From: a virus
Virus record (IMG/VR): IMGVR_UViG_3300031658_002726
Location: 1-22,940 of that record
DNA: 22,940 bases
Strand: one strand, 5' to 3'
In this document: positions 12,012 through 21,975 of the stretch, in pieces
How the letters are laid out: each line of letters begins with the position of its first letter
Position numbering within the stretch: position 1 is the first letter of the stretch
Notes under the pieces: model-generated
Told to the model about the DNA's origin: nothing
The model's input: only the letters and a program-made list of their open reading frames with translations
The model's database searches: none
Made by a program: the position numbers and the translations under genes

Positions 12012-12917
12012 ATGGCTGAAGGCCTAACAGTTTCCAGCTCTTCGAGTCTGTCCAGTATGTCCTTGACCGTAGTGACAGACGCTATTGCGAACATTGAACC
12101 TGCTGGCCCAACGGCTGGTTTGGTTACTCGATATGACCTTGCACAGGGTCAGACGCAGAAAAACATCCCTCTTTGGGGTCGTTTGACTGCTGCTGCTCTT
12201 ACCGAGGGTGTCGAGATCAACGCAGCACAGCAGGTATCCGTTACAGTTCGTAACGTGACTGCCTCTGAGCATGGTGTGTTGACGTTCGTATCACGCGTGC
12301 TGGAGCGAGAGAACTCTGAAGACGTTCTCTCTGAGGTCGGGATGATGCAGGGACTTGCACTAGGTAGACTCCGTGAGTCTGACTTGGTTACGTTATTCGA
12401 CTCAGTAACCGGACTTTCAATTCCGGGTGCTGGTGCGGCACTTACGTTCCAAGACCTCGCAGGTGCTGTTGCATATATGCAGACAGACAACAATTCGTCA
12501 TTTGGCCCTGCTCCGGGTGGTCAAATCAACGCAGTTCTTCACCCGGAACAGATTCGCCGCCTAGTCGAAGAAGACTCAGGCATTGGTGCTGGTGGCACTT
12601 CGATGGCAACAGGCGCACGACCCGCAGGGCCGAGTGAAGATGTCATCAAGAACTACTGGCGTGGTCAGGAACAACGATTTGGCGTACAGATTTGGTCTTC
12701 GGGAGTTATCTCTCGTGACGGCTCTGGTGACGCTAAGGGTGCGATCTTCGTACCACAGGCTTTCGCTCTCTGCATGGCGCAGGAAATTGAAGCCGATGAC
12801 CAGAAAGACATACGTTCCCGTGGTACTGACATCGTAACGGTGGGTACATGGGGCGAAACCGAGATCGTTGATGAATGGGCTGTAGAGGTTCATTCAGCAG
12901 CGGACGTAATTAGTTAG
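12012..12917 (+). CDS. Major capsid protein (HK97-like fold expected)
   Basis: The 301-aa product follows the scaffold, is preceded by a good ribosome binding site, and has the composition of a phage major capsid protein. It has a Ser-rich N-terminal arm, an extended charged loop around residues 40-65 that would be the E-loop, and mixed alpha/beta stretches. A typical capsid segment, VLHPEQIRRL, lies at about 177-186. It ends with a beta-rich part containing GTWGETEIVDEWAVEV. The length is at the small end of the normal range. There is no sign of a cleaved prodomain, which agrees with a separate scaffold and no visible maturation protease. The fold is inferred, since HK97 folds are poorly conserved in sequence. 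Confidence 0.85.
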   Translation: MAEGLTVSSSSSLSSMSLTVVTDAIANIEPAGPTAGLVTRYDLAQGQTQKNIPLWGRLTAAALTEGVEINAAQQVSVTVRNVTASEHGVLTFVSRVLERENSEDVLSEVGMMQGLALGRLRESDLVTLFDSVTGLSIPGAGAALTFQDLAGAVAYMQTDNNSSFGPAPGGQINAVLHPEQIRRLVEEDSGIGAGGTSMATGARPAGPSEDVIKNYWRGQEQRFGVQIWSSGVISRDGSGDAKGAIFVPQAFALCMAQEIEADDQKDIRSRGTDIVTVGTWGETEIVDEWAVEVHSAADVIS

Positions 12918-12923
12918 GCATTC

Positions 12924-13337
12924 ATGGCAGGTCTCACCGAAAGTTGGATAAGCGAGCAGTCTCAGGCTGGTATACAGCTATCTGGGAGTGGAGAAGATTA
13001 CGCAGTAGGCGTTCAGGAGCAATCTGAAGACGACTACCTCGTAATCTTCGACACTAAAGATGGGCATCCTTTACGGATTCCCGTTCAAGATAGGTCGTAC
13101 CAGCTTGCGAAAGTTCGCCCTACAACTCCGGGTGATCGTGCAAAATGGGTGAAGGTGAAGGGTCGCAAAGGCATGGTTCACTATGCCGAGCATGGCTCAA
13201 CACCAGCATATTCGGAGACTCCGCCTGTGATAACGCAGTCAACCAGTCCTGTAGCACCGCAAATGCCGCAGGAAGGTAAAGCTGGCAAGGGCAGGCGTAA
13301 ACGTGGAAATCGCGGCAAGCGAAAGGCTTCATCATAG
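12924..13337 (+). CDS. 137-aa head-block protein with a strongly basic C-terminal tail
   Basis: This gene starts six bases after the capsid stop and shares its last base with the GTG of the next gene (TAGTG). The first 85 or so residues are acidic then beta-rich and look folded. A Pro/Thr/Ser linker follows, and the last 20 residues are almost all Lys, Arg and Gly (GKGRRKRGNRGKRKASS). Such a tail would bind DNA or an acidic protein surface. I do not recognise a family. Its place directly after the capsid gene suggests a head completion, head-tail joining or DNA-contacting virion protein, by context only. The start has a weak TTAGG upstream. Confidence 0.75.
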   Translation: MAGLTESWISEQSQAGIQLSGSGEDYAVGVQEQSEDDYLVIFDTKDGHPLRIPVQDRSYQLAKVRPTTPGDRAKWVKVKGRKGMVHYAEHGSTPAYSETPPVITQSTSPVAPQMPQEGKAGKGRRKRGNRGKRKASS

Positions 13338-13819
13338 TGGTAATCTCGAATCATGTCCGACCCCCTGAACTCATGCTTGAGCAGGCAACAGCATCTATAC
13401 GGGATAAAGCCCGTGGCAATGCTAAGTTCGCCGAAATCTTGGGTGAGTTCGAGCGTCGTTTTGGCGACCTTGAGGGCAACCTCAAGCGGTTAGATTTTGT
13501 TTCGGCTGATTCCGCATACCTGCTTCAACCGCAGAAGGATGGTAGCTATGAACCTGTCGTCCGCAACATCCGTCCCGGTCAACTCGCCACTGCACTAGAG
13601 CGCGGTTTTCTTCCACTGGCTCATGCTGTCTATATGTCAGCGTTAGAGACGTTGGAAGTTCGCAAGAATTCAAGTGAGAGTGACGACGAAACTCAGGCGG
13701 GGTCTCAGACTTCTAAGCCCAAGGCACGTCCATTCAAGTGTGACCAGTGTGGAACCTCAACTACAACTAAGCGAAGACTCAACACTCATGTTGAGAATAA
13801 ACACTCAGGAGGCTCGTAA
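13337..13819 (+). CDS. 160-aa protein with a C-terminal C2H2 zinc finger
   Basis: The first 110 residues are helical and charged and match no family I know. A Ser/Asp/Glu/Thr linker leads to a zinc finger with C135, C138, H151 and H156 (Cys-x2-Cys-x12-His-x4-His). The Lys-Arg-rich stretch between the pairs has the layout of a classical DNA-binding finger helix. The start is GTG, sharing one base with the upstream TAG and preceded by AAAGG. An internal ATG at 13373 would give a protein 12 residues shorter with the finger unchanged. The place in the head block suggests a virion or assembly protein that contacts DNA. A regulatory protein is also possible. Confidence 0.8.
   Translation: MVISNHVRPPELMLEQATASIRDKARGNAKFAEILGEFERRFGDLEGNLKRLDFVSADSAYLLQPQKDGSYEPVVRNIRPGQLATALERGFLPLAHAVYMSALETLEVRKNSSESDDETQAGSQTSKPKARPFKCDQCGTSTTTKRRLNTHVENKHSGGS
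13739..13804 (+). other. C2H2 zinc finger coding segment
   Basis: The codons for C135 and C138 start at 13739 and 13748, and those for H151 and H156 at 13787 and 13802. The residues before it, RPFKC, and the closing HVENKH closely resemble classical fingers, including the aromatic residue two before the first Cys. All four metal ligands are present. Confidence 0.85.
13807..13812 (+). promoter_or_regulatory. Perfect AGGAGG ribosome binding site
   Basis: AGGAGG lies six bases before the ATG at 13819, inside the last codons of the zinc-finger gene. It is the best-matching ribosome binding site in the window and suggests that the 106-aa product is made in large amounts. Confidence 0.75.
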
Positions 13820-14267: not shown

Positions 14268-15104
14268 ATGCCCACTCAGATTAGAGCAGCAGTAGATCAC
14301 GAACTACGAAGCGCAGGTTTCGTATCGGGTGGACTTGCCGCCACGACCGCAGTGAAGACCACAGGATTCCCTGTTGGAACTAAGTCACTGTTCTCACATG
14401 TTCACAACCTTTCCTCCTCTACGGTTGTGAAGTTCGCTCTGAACCCTTGGCTAACAGTTCTGAAAACTGCTGATGCCGGGGCTACGTTTACGGACTACTC
14501 ATCAGTCGCCCAGAACGACCTTGCCGATTCCGGTGTAGTCCTATCGTCCCTACCAACTCTCGCCAATGGCGGTGCAGTATTCGTAGGTTCACATCTTCCA
14601 TTTAGAGGCTTGAACATTGACGTAAGTGATGTCAACGGGACAGCTTCGTTGCTGACTGCTGACTATTACAACGGCACTGCATTTGTTGATGCTACCGAAA
14701 CAGACGGCACAGATTCCGCTGGTACTGCGTTGGCTCAAGACGGCACAGTTACATTTGCAGTTCCAAGTGATTGGGCTGCGGCTCCACTTCGAGACATTAT
14801 GGATACTGCTAATGAGCCGTTCAATCCAACGTATGTCAAGCCGACTACAGATGGACGCTCACACGTATTACCTCTGTACTGGATTAGGCTCAAGGTAAGC
14901 GCAGCTTTAGACAGTGCTACTACGATCAACTCAATCCACGCCCTGAACCGGTCGGTAAGCTACGCCCAACTAGGTGCTGGTGTTCCGTTTGAGCGATCAC
15001 TTACTCGTGGCTTTGGTGGATTCGGTTCTCTTGAATATCTAACAGATGCGGGAACCGCTGACTTCAACGTAACTATTGGTAGCGGAAATGGGTACTTCGG
15101 ATAA
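14268..15104 (+). CDS. Beta-rich virion protein, probably tail or neck
   Basis: The 278-aa protein is built mainly of beta strands. Residues about 100-228 have a layout I associate with phage tail-surface beta-sandwich domains: a PFRGLNIDVSDVNG strand-turn, an ADYYNGTAFVDATETDGT strand pair, a GTVTFAVPSDW segment, and YWIRLKVSAALDS near the end. A Gly/Phe-rich C terminus (RGFGGFGSLEY) follows. It is the first gene after the hairpin, with a good ribosome binding site, so it is probably abundant. Possible roles are a tail or neck structural protein or a surface fibre. No enzymatic motif is visible. Its TAA overlaps the next ATG by one base. Confidence 0.72.
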   Translation: MPTQIRAAVDHELRSAGFVSGGLAATTAVKTTGFPVGTKSLFSHVHNLSSSTVVKFALNPWLTVLKTADAGATFTDYSSVAQNDLADSGVVLSSLPTLANGGAVFVGSHLPFRGLNIDVSDVNGTASLLTADYYNGTAFVDATETDGTDSAGTALAQDGTVTFAVPSDWAAAPLRDIMDTANEPFNPTYVKPTTDGRSHVLPLYWIRLKVSAALDSATTINSIHALNRSVSYAQLGAGVPFERSLTRGFGGFGSLEYLTDAGTADFNVTIGSGNGYFG

Positions 15105-15589
15105 TGGCTAACAGCAATATTCACATGGTTCAAAAGCCCCGGATGGTATTTGCAGAAGCAGATGCTCCGGGCGGCATCGTCTCAAAGTCAGGCAAAAGGA
15201 TTACGGCTAAGGTCATAATCCCTGATGGTGAGAGAGGCTATGGTGACCGTGAGTCTCTTGCTGCTATGACCGGAGATACTGTTGCAAGAGTCTCAACTGA
15301 CTCAGCAGCAGGTGACAAGGCTTACGAATCTGCTCTTGAGCAGTACGATCAGGACTCAGACTTACGCCTGAAGAAGATTGCAAACACGTCTGCCTTGTCG
15401 AAGACTCCTGCCATAAAGATGTTCTATGAGTCAGCTACTGACACATGGGATATCAACTGGCTTGATGAAGACCAACTTTCGGGAGTAGTTACTCCCCGCA
15501 GTAAAAAGCTGACAGATGCCCAAACTGGTTACATGTGGCAGCAATATCAAGACGCTCAACTAGCGAAGAAGATTCAGAAGGATGAGTAA
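15104..15589 (+). CDS. Hypothetical protein (161 aa) in the tail block
   Basis: I do not recognise this protein. The N-terminal third has several beta-like segments with Gly turns. The middle is Asp/Ala/Ser-rich and helical. The C-terminal third is charged and helical, with Trp residues in a DTWDINWLDED stretch and a final helix ending KKIQKDE. There is no signal peptide or membrane segment. It overlaps both neighbours by one base (TAATG at each end), so it is translated with the tail genes. A neck, adaptor or assembly role is possible from position only. Confidence 0.7.
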   Translation: MANSNIHMVQKPRMVFAEADAPGGIVSKSGKRITAKVIIPDGERGYGDRESLAAMTGDTVARVSTDSAAGDKAYESALEQYDQDSDLRLKKIANTSALSKTPAIKMFYESATDTWDINWLDEDQLSGVVTPRSKKLTDAQTGYMWQQYQDAQLAKKIQKDE

Positions 15590-16878
15590 TGACAACCACC
15601 ACGCTGAACACGATGCTTCCCGGCTTCGGCAGGTTCATTGGAGCGTTCATTGGGACGTTCTCGACTACAACTAACATAGCGGCAGACACCGCACTGATCT
15701 CAACAGGGTTGACTTCGTACTTCGAGGATAACGATCAGGCTAACGATTCGTTCGCATATATCAAAGGCACTGCTAATAACGGTGTTTCTCGTAGCGTACT
15801 CGACCATACAGGCCTCACAGGTGCATTAGACCTACGTGGGGTCGCCTTGTCTGCTGAGAGTGGCTCTGTAGACTTCGATTTGTACAGATATGACCCTGCA
15901 CAGATGGTTGATGCCCTGAATGATGGAATCAAGTCGTCATTCCCTACGTTGTACCTGCATAAGTACGACCGTACTCTTTACGGCGTGGCGCATCAGCGTA
16001 ACTACGCTCGTCCTTCCAGTATTGAGCCGGGATACGTCCGTAAGTTGTTCGTCGAGAGTCGGATAGACGCTAACTCGTTTGGTGACAACATCGCGAAGTC
16101 TAAGGACATTGACTTCGAGGATGACCTTACGGATTGGACTACTACAAATATCACGCTCACGGCTGAAGTAGAGACTAACGAGCCTGACAACATGATGGTG
16201 TTCGCTGGCAATCAGTCAGGCAAGCATGTCGTAGGAGCGTCTTCGCTAGGCAGTTCTTATGTGTCAATCGGTAGCCCGACTAATTACGACGGAGAAAAAA
16301 TCAACGTCACTGTCTGGGTCTATTGCCAAACAGCCAGCAGAGTATCGGCTGCGATTAGCGTAGATGGTGGCACAGCTACCGTCGGTACTACTCATTCTGG
16401 AGGTGGATGGGAGCGACTCTCAGTCAGCACTTCAGTGGGTGCTGTCTCTTCTTCTATCGCAGTGGGAGTCTATGCAACGTCAGGTACTGCGCTAACTTTC
16501 TATGCTGATGAACTGATTGCTACTGCCGGTCGCACAGAGGGGCCTCGTCCAGTATCAGGCTCTCTTGAATACTGGCGAGACGAAGCTGACGACTTATATG
16601 TTCCTTACGAAATCCCTTCCTCACAACAGCTTGTTGTTGAGGGTATGGGTCTCCTGAGTAGTGTCTCCTCTGGCACTGACACGGTGGAGATCGGCGGTAC
16701 TCAGCTACAGCGTCTGTACGCATACGCTGCGATTGAGTTCTTCCAAGGTGACATCGACCAGATGGATGACGGTGAGCAGAATTCTGCACTACGGAAGTTG
16801 ACTAGCTGGCGCAACAGAATCAATGAAGGCAGGGGCATTATGGCTCCGGTCTCGAAGCGGAAAGTACCGGTCTACTAA
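15589..16878 (+). CDS. Head-tail adaptor candidate with an inserted jelly-roll domain
   Basis: This 429-aa protein appears to be a host scaffold split by an insertion. Residues about 95-122 (DLYRYDPAQMVDALNDGIKS) recall phage adaptor-type proteins, which often carry such an alternating helix near a conserved Asn. Residues about 370-415 are helical. Between these, residues about 172-314 form a beta jelly-roll of the carbohydrate-binding-module type. It begins FEDDLTDW, continues with strands such as EKINVTVWVYC and GGGWERLSVSTSV, and ends FYADELI. Removing it leaves about 286 residues, plausible for an adaptor. AAGGA lies upstream of the ATG, and both ends overlap neighbours by one base. The adaptor role is inference from order and size. 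Confidence 0.7.
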   Translation: MTTTTLNTMLPGFGRFIGAFIGTFSTTTNIAADTALISTGLTSYFEDNDQANDSFAYIKGTANNGVSRSVLDHTGLTGALDLRGVALSAESGSVDFDLYRYDPAQMVDALNDGIKSSFPTLYLHKYDRTLYGVAHQRNYARPSSIEPGYVRKLFVESRIDANSFGDNIAKSKDIDFEDDLTDWTTTNITLTAEVETNEPDNMMVFAGNQSGKHVVGASSLGSSYVSIGSPTNYDGEKINVTVWVYCQTASRVSAAISVDGGTATVGTTHSGGGWERLSVSTSVGAVSSSIAVGVYATSGTALTFYADELIATAGRTEGPRPVSGSLEYWRDEADDLYVPYEIPSSQQLVVEGMGLLSSVSSGTDTVEIGGTQLQRLYAYAAIEFFQGDIDQMDDGEQNSALRKLTSWRNRINEGRGIMAPVSKRKVPVY

Positions 16879-19364
16879 TGGCTACCGCAGGGAAGAATGC
16901 TGACATAACAGTCTCCAATGCTGACGGCTCTACCAATCAGGTAGCCCTGACGCTATGGAGAGACGACCCAAGCCGCCCCGGTGGATGGGAAGACGGTGCT
17001 GTCCCTACAACGCCTGTGCCGCAGGCTCAAGGTGAGAGTAACTACGCTTCACTGTCTCCTGAGTTCGGCAGGGTGTATTCGCAGTCAGACTGGACTAGAG
17101 GGTTCGGGATGTCTAGTGTGAAGGAACATGTTGACAACCGTGAGTACGGGTACACCGATGGTGTGCTTGCCATGTTCGAGCATGAACTTGTCCCCGGATA
17201 CAGAGAGGATGAAGTCGATGCGATCATGCGTAACGGACGATTTGAAACCGGTGGCATCGGAGGCTGGACAGACGGAACTAACACCACCCTTGCTTCTAGT
17301 ACCTCTGCGAAGTCTGGTTCCTTCGCCTTGTCTGTTACCGCTGATGCCAACGCTGGAACCTGTACCCAGAACTATCTCGGAACAGACTCAGTCTTACAGT
17401 CCATCGAGATCACTGTTGTCGCTTATGTTAAAAGGTCGTCAGGCTCCGGGACGATCTCTCTGGGTATTGCTGACGGAGTCGGAACGTCTACGTCGTCAAC
17501 CAGTTCAAGCACTGATTGGACTCTCTTGGAGGTCACTCGAACGATTGATGCTTCAGCGAGTGCTATCCAATTCATCTTCACGCTCAGTACCAGTGGTGAC
17601 GTATTCCTGATTGACGACGCTGGCGTAATACCAACCGGTGGTAGTGAGTGGAAGTCCCGCCCGATCAAGTTCGGCACAGACCTTTACTCCACGATGGGTC
17701 GTTACATAATGAAGTGGGATGAAGATTCAGACACATTCCTGCCTGTTTACGTTGATGCTTCGTATGAGATTACGGGGCTTGCTTCGTTTGAATCGAATAT
17801 GTACGCAGGTCGTGGGTCTGATAATAACTATCTAACCAGTACGGACGGGGCTACGTGGTCTGACCCTGCTACCAACTCAGGTGACAACAGGCTGGCTGAG
17901 TTCTTTGTTGTGGTGAAGAATGCTCGTGGTGACTGGGCATTGATGAAAACCCGCGCCAATAAAATCTCTATTTCAGTAGTGCCAACAGACACCTTGAACT
18001 GGGGGGCAGAGATTCAGGCTGGAGACCCTGCCAAAAGTATCACAAGCCTTACGGCTGCTGCTGGCACTGCCTACATCGGTCGAGAGGATGGACTGTTTGT
18101 TTATGACGACCACACCAACCTGTTCTCTGATGTAGAGCCTGACGCTAACTTCTTCTCATCTTCAAAGAACTTCAAGTCTGCTATTGGTAGAGGTGGCGCG
18201 CTGTGGGCATCTGGTGGTGAGCAGACATTTTGGAACGCTTCACCTACAGGTCGTGGAACTAACCATGATTGGTCTAACATGACTCACTTGGTTCAGTCCA
18301 ATGCTTATCAGGGGTTTGGTGGTCACGTAGCCGCTCTTGCACAGGACAGGGCTAACGTATTCGTTGCTCTATCTGACAACGCCGCTACTGAATCAGGCAC
18401 GTTCCCGTACACATTCCCGTTCTCGTTCGTTACGGCAGGGCTGTCTTCAAAGGTCAGACTTCTCTCGATCAGGAACATGAGTGCTGCTGGCGACCCTAAC
18501 ATTCTCGGTGCTGACCGAACGGTAAGCGTCAGTGTTCACACGCTCACATCATTTGCTGTATCTCAGATAGATCAGATATCACGGTTCGATGACGGTAACC
18601 AGTCGTCCATGTTCGCCTTTGGTTCATTGACAGACCCTGACATTACCGGCACGTACAAGAGCATTCCTCGCTGTACACGGCTCAGGATGCCCAGAGACAA
18701 CGAGAACCCCCGTCGTGCCAACAACATTCATGTTCGATTGGCCTCGACGTTCTACACTCCTTGGATTGATTACAACTACCCAGATACAGAGAAGGCTGAA
18801 GGCACTCTCACTATCGGTAGTAGCAACTTCAGTTCTGGTTCTAAATACGTGACTGTCTCTTACAAGACGGATGACGACACTGACGACGACTCTACGGGGT
18901 GGACAGTGTTTGGCGACGACGGAGTGTTTGATGTGTCTCCGTCTGAGACTAAATCTGCGGTACTCACTACGCCTGTGACGTTCAAGCGCATCAGGTTCAA
19001 GGTGGAGTTCACTACTAATTCACATACTGACGTACCCCCAGCTATTTCCTCGATGGTGTTCAAGTCTGTGTGGAATGAAGACGAGCCGCGTAAGTTCAAG
19101 GGGTCAGTCAAGCTGACTGATCGTAAGAGCCTTCAGTTGCGTAGAGTTCCCCAGCGAACACTGCGTACTGCTGACATTTCAAAACTAGAGTTGCTTCGTA
19201 AGCAGCCCTTCATACAGTTAGTGACTCCTGAAGGGGAGTCCATCAATGCGACGTTCCGTTACAGGAGTCGTACAATCGGTGGAAGAGTGGATGCAACAAG
19301 AGGTCGCCCGGTTGACCAAGTTCGCGCACTTGACCTAGAGTTCACAGAAGTATTGACCAGCTAA
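16878..19364 (+). CDS. Tail nozzle or beta-propeller candidate with an inserted jelly-roll domain
   Basis: The 828-aa length and place after the adaptor candidate match the tubular tail (nozzle) proteins of short-tailed phages, which are beta-propellers. After an N-terminal segment of about 110 residues comes a carbohydrate-binding-like jelly-roll at about 114-252, beginning MRNGRFETGGIGGW and ending VFLIDDAGVI. Residues about 258-500 then show repeated blade-like units, such as FGTDLYSTMGRYIMKWDED, ITGLASFESNMYAGRG and GTAYIGREDGLFVYDD. The last 300 residues are beta-rich with a basic stretch (RKSLQLRRVPQRTLR) near 755-770. It overlaps the upstream gene by one base. The nozzle role is inferred. 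A host-binding surface protein is the alternative. Confidence 0.72.
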   Translation: MATAGKNADITVSNADGSTNQVALTLWRDDPSRPGGWEDGAVPTTPVPQAQGESNYASLSPEFGRVYSQSDWTRGFGMSSVKEHVDNREYGYTDGVLAMFEHELVPGYREDEVDAIMRNGRFETGGIGGWTDGTNTTLASSTSAKSGSFALSVTADANAGTCTQNYLGTDSVLQSIEITVVAYVKRSSGSGTISLGIADGVGTSTSSTSSSTDWTLLEVTRTIDASASAIQFIFTLSTSGDVFLIDDAGVIPTGGSEWKSRPIKFGTDLYSTMGRYIMKWDEDSDTFLPVYVDASYEITGLASFESNMYAGRGSDNNYLTSTDGATWSDPATNSGDNRLAEFFVVVKNARGDWALMKTRANKISISVVPTDTLNWGAEIQAGDPAKSITSLTAAAGTAYIGREDGLFVYDDHTNLFSDVEPDANFFSSSKNFKSAIGRGGALWASGGEQTFWNASPTGRGTNHDWSNMTHLVQSNAYQGFGGHVAALAQDRANVFVALSDNAATESGTFPYTFPFSFVTAGLSSKVRLLSIRNMSAAGDPNILGADRTVSVSVHTLTSFAVSQIDQISRFDDGNQSSMFAFGSLTDPDITGTYKSIPRCTRLRMPRDNENPRRANNIHVRLASTFYTPWIDYNYPDTEKAEGTLTIGSSNFSSGSKYVTVSYKTDDDTDDDSTGWTVFGDDGVFDVSPSETKSAVLTTPVTFKRIRFKVEFTTNSHTDVPPAISSMVFKSVWNEDEPRKFKGSVKLTDRKSLQLRRVPQRTLRTADISKLELLRKQPFIQLVTPEGESINATFRYRSRTIGGRVDATRGRPVDQVRALDLEFTEVLTS

Positions 19365-19377
19365 GGAAGCGGCAAAC

Positions 19378-21975
19378 ATGTCAAACGAGTTCAAGCATCT
19401 CTCCGTCGGTGGAGAGATGACTCAAGCAGAGTACGAAGCCATTGGCGCACACGTACTGGAGTCTCAGGCTGTAGGTGACATCATCTACGCCCTCTCCCCC
19501 ACTCAGCTTTCCCGATTAGGGATTGGTGCAGAGAACGGCATCCTGAATGTCTCTTCTGGGGGAGTCCCTGAATGGGGAACAACTCTTGCTGGACTAACGC
19601 TCACCTCGCCTGTGCTGAACACTGGCGTGTCTGGTACGGCTATATCTACCGATACTGCTCTTGGCACAAGTAACACCCTTCTATCCACTCAGGGTGCAGT
19701 CAAGTCCTACGTTGATTCTGTCGCTACAGCCTCTGACCTAGATTTCCAAGGGGACACTGGTGGGGCATTAGCAATCGACCTCGACGCAGAGGTTCTGGAC
19801 ATTGCTGGTGGTACAGGTATCGACACTAGTGGTTCTCTGAACACCCTGACTGTCGCCATTGATAGCACCGTTGCAACTCTTACAGGGGTACAGACCCTAA
19901 CTGATAAGACGTTGACCGCTCCAGTGATGACTGCTCCAGTGCTTGGCACTATCGCATCTGGTGTAGCAACTAATCTGACAGGCACAGCCCCAAGTCTTAC
20001 GGCTGGAAACGTAACGACTAACGCTGACCTAACAGGAATGGTGACCTCATCAGGCAATGCTGCAACGGTTGTCACTAACGCCAGCCTCACTGGTCATATC
20101 ACCTCATCAGGTAACGCAACTGTCCTTGGTACAGGCTCGTTCACTTCGGCTCACCTTGCTGGCGCACTTACGAACGAAACAGGTACAGGGCTTGCGGTAT
20201 TCAACACCTCTCCAGCCCTTGTTACTCCTGCTCTTGGCACTCCAGCATCAGGCGTACTAACCAGCACGACCGGATACCCCGGTGATTCTTCACTGGTTAC
20301 AACTGGTGTACTGGGTGCTGGCTCCATCGGCACAAGTTTCGGTGTAATCAATAACGCCGCTGCGATTAGCGGAACAGTTCTTACTGCCGCAACCAACTTC
20401 ACGATGGGTAGCACAGTTGTAACCGACGGTGTTATCACCGACGCAACCGGATTGTCGCTTGCTGCTGACGTAACAGTCACCGGAGACCTGACCGTTAGCG
20501 GCACTACTACAACTGTTGACTCTACCGTTACTACTTACGTAGACCCGATTATTCATTTGCAAACCGCTTCGGGTGGTGGTGCTTTAGGTTCTGACTCCAA
20601 TAAAGACGTAGGGCTTGCGCTCCAATATCACACTGGGGCTGCTGCTAAACAGGCGTTCTTAGGTATAGACGACAGCGACTCTTACAAGTTGATGTTTATC
20701 CCTGACGCTACGCTCACATCGGAAGTTGTCACTGGTGCAGTAGGAACAATCAAGGCTAATCTGGAAGGTGACGTCACTGGCGCGCTGACAGGTAATGCTG
20801 ACACTGTAACTACCAATGCAAACCTCACTGGTCACATAACTTCGACAGGCAATGCTGCCGTACTTGGCTCGTTCACTCTAGCCCAGTTGAACACAGCCAT
20901 CTCAGACGACTCGCTTGGTGGCGGTGGCTCGGACATGGTGTCAACGAACAACCTGTCAGATGTTGCTAGTGCGCTTACATCCCGTACTAACCTAGGCGTT
21001 GCGATTGGAAGCGACGTTCAGGCTTACTCAGCAGTCCTTGCGGCTGTCGTAGCAGGGACAGACATTACTATTGCTCAAGGTGGCACAGGCGCAAGCACAG
21101 CAACGGCTGGCTTCGATGCCTTGTCTCCTATGACTACGTCTGGTGACGTTGTATATGGCGGTGTTGCTGGAACTGGAACGAGATTAGCTAAAGGTGCAAA
21201 CGGTCAAGTTCTAACTCTTGCAGCAGGAGTCCCCTCGTGGTCATCAGTAGCAGCGACCTACACTGACGCAGAAGCAGTCTTGGCAATAGAAGCAGAAGCC
21301 ACTCTCGTACTGAGCAGCGGCATGACCGCTACGGGTGCAGTTCTAACTGCTCCGGTACTAGGCACTCCTGTATCAGGCGATATGTCTAACATGACCGGAC
21401 TGGTCAATGCTGGTGTAGCTGCCGGGGCAGCCATCGCAGTATCTAAGACTGCACTTGCTGCTGGTACTGGTATGACTCTTGCGACTAACAGCTTGAGTGT
21501 CGATGCGGCACAAGCCGGTATCACATCTATCTACAATGCTGCTCTCCACGTTGGTCGTGATGCAGACAACACGATTGACTTCACGGTTGACAATCAGGTT
21601 CGATTCCAAATATCCAACGTATTAGACGAGATTCGATTTATAGCCGGTGGTGTAGGTCACTTCCACGGTGACGTATACGCCTTCTCGACCACGACTGCAT
21701 CTGACCGACGCTTGAAGAAGAACATCGTCAACCTTGATGACTCTATCGGTAAGATCAAGCAACTCAACGGGGTTAGCTATGACTGGAAGGACGAGAAGCG
21801 GGGTTCATCCACAGGGCTGATCGCTCAAGAAGTTCAGGCGATTTTGCCTCAACTCGTTAGTGAAGTCCCGAACATGGGTGGCGAGACTGGCACTCACCTG
21901 ACGCTGAACTACGATGGCATCATAGGATTGCTGGTCGAAGCCGTGAAGGAACTCTCCGAGAAGGCTGGTCTGTAA
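19378..21975 (+). CDS. Tail fibre protein with a C-terminal S74 intramolecular chaperone/protease
   Basis: The 865-aa protein is a trimeric-fibre type. After an N-terminal attachment segment it is built of repeats known from phage fibres: TAPVLGTPxSG units (three places), SGNAxVLG and LTGHITS units, a VTGDLTVSGTTTTVDST unit near 380, a NLSDVASALTSRTNLG unit, and a QGGTGASTATAGFDALS unit. Residues 775-865 match the S74 chaperone: SDRRLKKNI, then GLIAQEVQAILPQLV and LNYDGIIGLLVEAVKEL. S775 and K780 form the expected catalytic pair, and self-cleavage would occur just before S775 after the trimer folds. AAGGAAG at 19363-19369 serves the start. No enzymatic depolymerase domain is seen. Confidence 0.88.
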   Translation: MSNEFKHLSVGGEMTQAEYEAIGAHVLESQAVGDIIYALSPTQLSRLGIGAENGILNVSSGGVPEWGTTLAGLTLTSPVLNTGVSGTAISTDTALGTSNTLLSTQGAVKSYVDSVATASDLDFQGDTGGALAIDLDAEVLDIAGGTGIDTSGSLNTLTVAIDSTVATLTGVQTLTDKTLTAPVMTAPVLGTIASGVATNLTGTAPSLTAGNVTTNADLTGMVTSSGNAATVVTNASLTGHITSSGNATVLGTGSFTSAHLAGALTNETGTGLAVFNTSPALVTPALGTPASGVLTSTTGYPGDSSLVTTGVLGAGSIGTSFGVINNAAAISGTVLTAATNFTMGSTVVTDGVITDATGLSLAADVTVTGDLTVSGTTTTVDSTVTTYVDPIIHLQTASGGGALGSDSNKDVGLALQYHTGAAAKQAFLGIDDSDSYKLMFIPDATLTSEVVTGAVGTIKANLEGDVTGALTGNADTVTTNANLTGHITSTGNAAVLGSFTLAQLNTAISDDSLGGGGSDMVSTNNLSDVASALTSRTNLGVAIGSDVQAYSAVLAAVVAGTDITIAQGGTGASTATAGFDALSPMTTSGDVVYGGVAGTGTRLAKGANGQVLTLAAGVPSWSSVAATYTDAEAVLAIEAEATLVLSSGMTATGAVLTAPVLGTPVSGDMSNMTGLVNAGVAAGAAIAVSKTALAAGTGMTLATNSLSVDAAQAGITSIYNAALHVGRDADNTIDFTVDNQVRFQISNVLDEIRFIAGGVGHFHGDVYAFSTTTASDRRLKKNIVNLDDSIGKIKQLNGVSYDWKDEKRGSSTGLIAQEVQAILPQLVSEVPNMGGETGTHLTLNYDGIIGLLVEAVKELSEKAGL
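21700..21972 (+). other. S74 chaperone/protease domain of the fibre
   Basis: This segment encodes residues 775-865, with S775 (codon at 21700) and K780 in the SDRRLK motif. In known members this part directs trimerisation of the fibre and then cuts itself off, leaving the mature fibre without it. All landmark segments are present, so the domain looks functional. Confidence 0.88.

Follow-up and report, generated by a model that had tools for sequence, protein, structure and literature searches.

Carbohydrate-binding-type jelly-rolls inserted in an adaptor-like and a nozzle-like phage protein, and apparent exchange of the nozzle allele between close relatives

Why should two neighbouring proteins of the putative short tail of an uncultured phage each be interrupted by a domain resembling a carbohydrate-binding module (CBM)? 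The original prediction for this locus had placed such domains as glycan-binding knobs on the tail shaft, apart from the fibre, and had considered that they form an exchangeable pair or arose by duplication between neighbours. In the window, by which we mean the entire 22,940-base virus record, genes for terminase, portal and capsid precede a set of small genes, after which come three genes encoding, in this order, proteins of 429 aa and 828 aa and a fibre protein of 865 aa. The ORFs of the 429-aa and 828-aa proteins (15589-16878 and 16878-19364) were confirmed, as were the motifs by which the domains had been recognized, with FEDDLTDW, GGGWERLSVS and FYADEL at their places in the 429-aa protein and RFETGGIGGW, DWTLLEVTRT and FLIDDA in the 828-aa protein. 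The features discussed here are as follows.

15589..16878, + strand: adaptor-like protein, 429 aa (ORF; subthreshold SU10_adaptor, PF24175, match in relatives; order of helices and strands)
15589..15888, + strand: extra beta-rich N-terminal region, residues 1-100 of the adaptor-like protein (outside the SU10_adaptor match)
16081..16533, + strand: CBM-type jelly-roll insert, residues 165-315 of the adaptor-like protein (model; profile kinship with the nozzle insert)
16878..19364, + strand: nozzle-like protein, 828 aa, with a predicted T7/P22-type propeller fold (ORF, model, structure matches)
17217..17633, + strand: CBM_4_9-type jelly-roll insert, residues 114-252 of the nozzle-like protein (Pfam, model)
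17262..18038, + strand: equivalent of a swapped tract, residues ~129-387 of the nozzle-like protein, comprising most of the CBM and the next propeller blades (contig L060 vs. L061 and L075)
19378..21975, + strand: tail fibre gene adjoining that of the nozzle; its product carries a Peptidase_S74 chaperone domain at the C-terminus (ORF, Pfam)

Relatives are referred to below as group A (the window, L027 and L036-L038), group B (L032-L035, L041-L047, L050 and L051), group B' (L062, L067 and L072) and group C (L049, L077-L085 and L097-L100). Some features of the upstream genes are recorded here in their own right. The capsid protein (12012-12917) has 26-29% identity to its counterparts in Pelagibacter phages and two others, all of which have genes of the long-tailed type, although the adaptor and nozzle here are those of a short tail; the head and tail modules form a mosaic. 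A 160-aa protein (13337-13819) ends in a C2H2 zinc-finger-like motif, FKCDQCGTSTTTKRRLNTHVENKH, that seems unusual among phage head genes, and a 278-aa gene (14268-15104) has BLAST relatives in the tested group A loci, with none found in L032, L033 and L035.

The 429-aa protein was modelled whole with AlphaFold2 from an alignment of 23 sequences, yielding helices at residues 6-17, 103-116, 370-391 and 394-412 around a beta region, as candidates for the four-helix up-down bundle of adaptor proteins; in this model the insert sits between strands of the beta region, which is flanked by the putative bundle helices. The borders of the insert in the predicted structure, residues 165-315, represent a small shift from the 172-314 proposed earlier, with pLDDT of ~78-91 across most of the domain and ~62-65 at residues 191-210. 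Compared with solved CBMs, the predicted domain gave Z scores of 13-15, with families 4, 16, 22 and 61 among the matches (14.4 to 8xmz, 14.1 to a CBM16 and 13.6 to a CBM22). The insert had no Pfam match, CBM_4_9 being absent in the window protein and 22 relatives at E up to 1, and we have therefore placed it in the fold superfamily only, outside this Pfam family. As for the protein that carries it, the SU10_adaptor profile gave a weak match from residue 105 on in relatives L079 and L081, extending over residues 105-214 in intact L079 (E 5.6e-4). Upon removal of the insert from L079, the match ran in one stretch (profile positions 20-177, E 3e-5), still 2 bits below the cut-off, and three group C relatives without their inserts reached 23.4-25.0 bits vs. 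a cut-off of 27; the window protein itself had no match to this profile, with or without its insert. That removal renders the match continuous argues for a true insertion, and on the basis of this weak sequence match the 429-aa protein is SU10-adaptor-like. A viral structure-library entry, A0A1B1ITR8, matched the 429-aa model over its full length (TM 0.64-0.65, 23% identity), suggesting that the architecture probably reaches beyond these contigs. Pfam PF10109 matches at the adaptor C-terminus were below cut-off and on the terminal helices, and we have put them down to chance or helix similarity.

For the 828-aa protein, the insert borders of 114-252 were unchanged after structure prediction (21 sequences), with pLDDT of ~92-95 over most of the length of the insert. 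This insert matches Pfam CBM_4_9 (PF02018) at residues 115-238 (E 5.2e-8, 33.8 bits vs. a cut-off of 25.9), and 11 of 21 nozzle relatives carry a match to the same family at E up to 1; its model resembles the porphyran-binding bacterial CBM 8xmz (TM 0.81 by target length), which the insert also matches by sequence. Foldseek of the 828-aa model returned as its top four the tail/nozzle proteins of Kp9, E1004, T7 and Carin-1, with P22 close behind, although the global TM to the top nozzle structures was low (0.19-0.28). VIA-align laid residues ~104-610 onto propellers with Z of ~21-23, and from this alignment strand 108-115 and the strands from 263 appear to belong to one predicted propeller, with the CBM between them. 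Judged by the fold of the model, the 828-aa protein is a T7/P22-type nozzle, the propeller of which gates the DNA channel in T7. Since Pfam Phage_nozzle (PF25675), which T7 gp12 matches end to end, has no match in the 828-aa window protein, we call the latter nozzle-like and keep it outside that Pfam family; sequence profiles of the adaptor and nozzle cores found no solved structure. Both insert models display the two-sheet jelly-roll of ~140 residues that typifies the CBM4/16/22-like superfamily. Taken together, the models and the SU10_adaptor comparison bear out the proposal that two different proteins are each interrupted by a separable CBM jelly-roll, and the naming of these proteins as adaptor-like and nozzle-like holds as well.

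Are the two inserts related to each other? Direct BLASTP of the two proteins gave a weak in-register match (E 0.028), and the first comparison of ten-sequence insert profiles was also weak (27% probability), but deeper profiles aligned (95% probability, E 4.2e-8) at a score of 51.8, vs. 12.6 +/- 2.2 (maximum 18.2) for 40 column-shuffled control profiles. The profiles contain conserved aromatic columns, candidates for residues lining a binding cleft. At the level of the superfamily, then, profile comparison indicates that the inserts are homologous, as distant relatives. This kinship and the adjacency of the two genes are what one would expect if one neighbour had given rise to the insert of the other by duplication within this lineage, as had been suggested at the outset, but we consider this unlikely: the inserts are just ~20% identical, the bacterial CBM 8xmz is a sequence match of the nozzle insert but not of the adaptor insert, and the data are accounted for equally well if each insert was acquired separately from the large CBM superfamily.

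To gather relatives without bias for the inserts, we used the nozzle core alone, the adaptor N-terminal core alone and the capsid protein as queries. Both inserts were present in 36/36 distinct contigs reaching far enough into these genes, two of which end inside the nozzle insert, and this distribution across contigs implies that both are long fixed in the lineage and are not optional. The original prediction would have taken presence of the region in all homologues, as an integral part of the core fold, as evidence against insertion; presence in every relative comes close to this, yet the adaptor domain is an insertion with respect to SU10-type adaptors. DNA and protein searches of a phage collection with both proteins and divergent relatives gave no match, and a genome scan for a prophage relative found none. 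When isolates were searched with the capsid as anchor, Pelagibacter phages HTVC026P/111P/112P/202P, DSL-LC06 and Mae-JY09 came up and were considered as insert-free homologues, but they could not serve as such because the tail genes annotated in them, for a tape measure or a major tail protein, are those of long-tailed phages.

As every relative has the inserts, our first view was that both are non-exchangeable; analysis of distances overturned this view for the nozzle insert only. Outside the insert, the nozzles of groups B and C are the closest among A, B and C (0.54-0.68 identity), whereas over the insert A and C are the closest (0.45 vs. 0.34). This order of similarity was reversed in 99% of triples over the nozzle insert vs. 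0-2% in other blocks; among 139-residue windows, only those overlapping the insert had the reversal, with a peak at 109-247, and BLAST scores, which do not depend on a shared alignment, showed the same. Unrooted trees of insert and core did not clearly disagree on how A, B, B' and C group, and hence the reversal among these old groups alone could also reflect a change of rate in one lineage. More telling are three near-identical contigs, L060, L061 and L075 (the same contigs as L032, L051 and L033, respectively, in the dS comparison), in which the DNA around the tract is mostly 97-100% identical, with some dips to 87-95%, and L060, an allele represented by a single metagenomic contig, differs over nozzle residues ~140-400 of its own numbering (~129-387 in the window), down to 65-92% identity. 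The dS of this swapped tract is 0.64-0.78 vs. ~0.1 on either side; for L032 and L051 it is 0.64 at residues 114-252 and 0.75 at residues 253-391, whereas the remaining blocks of the two proteins range from 0.00 to 0.11. The recent swapped tract is thus not confined to the CBM, as it spans several propeller blades too. L061 and L075 have the insert allele in common and differ in their distal fibres.

An alternative to exchange would be that relaxed or diversifying selection has sped up the evolution of the nozzle insert in some lineages, consistent with the absence of clear topological conflict between groups and with a dN/dS that is mostly higher in the insert than in the rest of the nozzle. 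However, between the near-identical contigs the borders of the tract are sharp and synonymous divergence jumps ~six- to tenfold across it, a jump not expected from selection acting only on the protein, and we regard this alternative as quite improbable. By these sequence comparisons, the nozzle insert appears to be mobile as an allele between closely related phages. For the adaptor insert, no independent exchange was seen among the relatives compared: no change in the pattern of similarity coincides with its borders, and where it differs strongly, in L034/L047, the remainder of residues 111-429 differs with it. Of the exchangeable domain pair once envisaged, the nozzle half is therefore supported and the adaptor half is not, and the two do not move together. 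Separately, residues 1-110 of the adaptor-like protein form a second swapped tract in L075, L060 and L061, with dS of ~0.53 vs. ~0.08 elsewhere in the protein.

What, then, might the inserts do? If the copy numbers are as in T7, the adaptor CBM would be present in 12 copies and the nozzle CBM in 6. We surmise that the nozzle CBM would project beside the fibre attachment site and bind a host-surface glycan weakly, with avidity, as a second and variable adsorption device with alleles traded by recombination; variable and recombining as it is, it looks like an accessory adhesin. The adaptor CBM may act as an adhesin that recognizes a common sugar, or as a structural element, e.g. part of a fibre dock, alternatives to which its greater conservation points, given that it is conserved to the same degree as its core, unlike a determinant of host range. 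In T7 and P-SCSP1u, adaptor and nozzle hold the fibre between them, so that by analogy both CBMs may be situated close to the base of the fibre.

The chief rival to glycan binding is that both inserts are structural, i.e. CBM-type jelly-rolls that do not bind sugar and that form or extend the docks holding the fibre between adaptor and nozzle. Precedent exists in T7 and P-SCSP1u, where one dock on the adaptor, a small jelly-roll in the case of T7, and another on the nozzle flank the fibre (PMC6702177, PMC10575957), and the location of the adaptor insert between strands of the beta region flanked by the putative bundle helices, its occurrence in all relatives and its 33 invariant residues fit with such a role; for the adaptor insert, fibre docking is a serious rival. 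The nozzle insert fits less well, as evidenced by: 1) an identity of 0.47 vs. an average of 0.62 for the core of its protein; 2) the swapping of its tract; and 3) the occurrence of one insert allele with different distal fibres, an argument that is weak because the fibre N-terminus is conserved. For the two inserts jointly, we deem a structural role possible but somewhat doubtful. We lean towards the reading that CBM jelly-rolls were inserted in the tail-shaft proteins and long fixed there, with that of the nozzle acting as a second, variable and recombining glycan-binding adsorption device. More tentatively, the nozzle CBM could be a second device for host recognition that recombines apart from the fibre while the related adaptor CBM stays constant, such that host range would be set by two exchangeable parts. 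If the nozzle domain does bind a host glycan, the nozzle would itself touch the cell surface, and part of the specificity would escape any prediction of host range based on the fibre only; the two natural alleles present in near-identical contigs render this glycan-binding reading testable.

In the open-access literature searched, we found no report of short-tailed phages that carry CBMs in their adaptor and nozzle. Vibrio phage Peru-2 was considered as a precedent and set aside, its CBM being in the tailspike (PMC13320782). Among short-tailed phages, T7 is similar in having adjacent genes for adaptor gp11 and nozzle gp12 after the capsid gene, together with a propeller-based nozzle and a fibre held between the two proteins (PMC6702177); it differs in that gp11 and gp12 are covered largely or entirely by matches to PF17212 and PF25675, neither of which the window proteins match by sequence, and in having no CBM in a Pfam scan of either protein. 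In SU10, the adaptor is akin to the group C adaptor core, which without its insert gives a single continuous match to PF24175, and the nozzle likewise has extra domains inserted; however, these nozzle inserts are Ig-like and lie between blades 2 and 3, and an adaptor CBM has not been described (PMC9509320). CBMs on tail and neck proteins are already known in long-tailed phages. Lactococcal siphophages of the 936 group carry them on the neck passage structure, as an extension of the major tail protein and on an evolved Dit, as added CBM-type domains separate from the receptor-binding protein, and two of these, on neck and tail, were shown to bind host cells; unlike the phages studied here, they are long-tailed, infect Gram-positive hosts and use carrier proteins other than a short-tail adaptor or nozzle (PMC6669499). 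The marine roseophage R4C also bears added carbohydrate-binding-type domains on its tail machine, in Dit and megatron proteins, but these are distal tail and baseplate proteins of a siphophage rather than an adaptor or nozzle (PMC10276861). With respect to exchange, the neck passage structure offers a parallel in which closely related phages have exchanged domains of a tail protein, although what is exchanged there are non-homologous C-terminal domains and not internal CBM alleles (PMC10684548).
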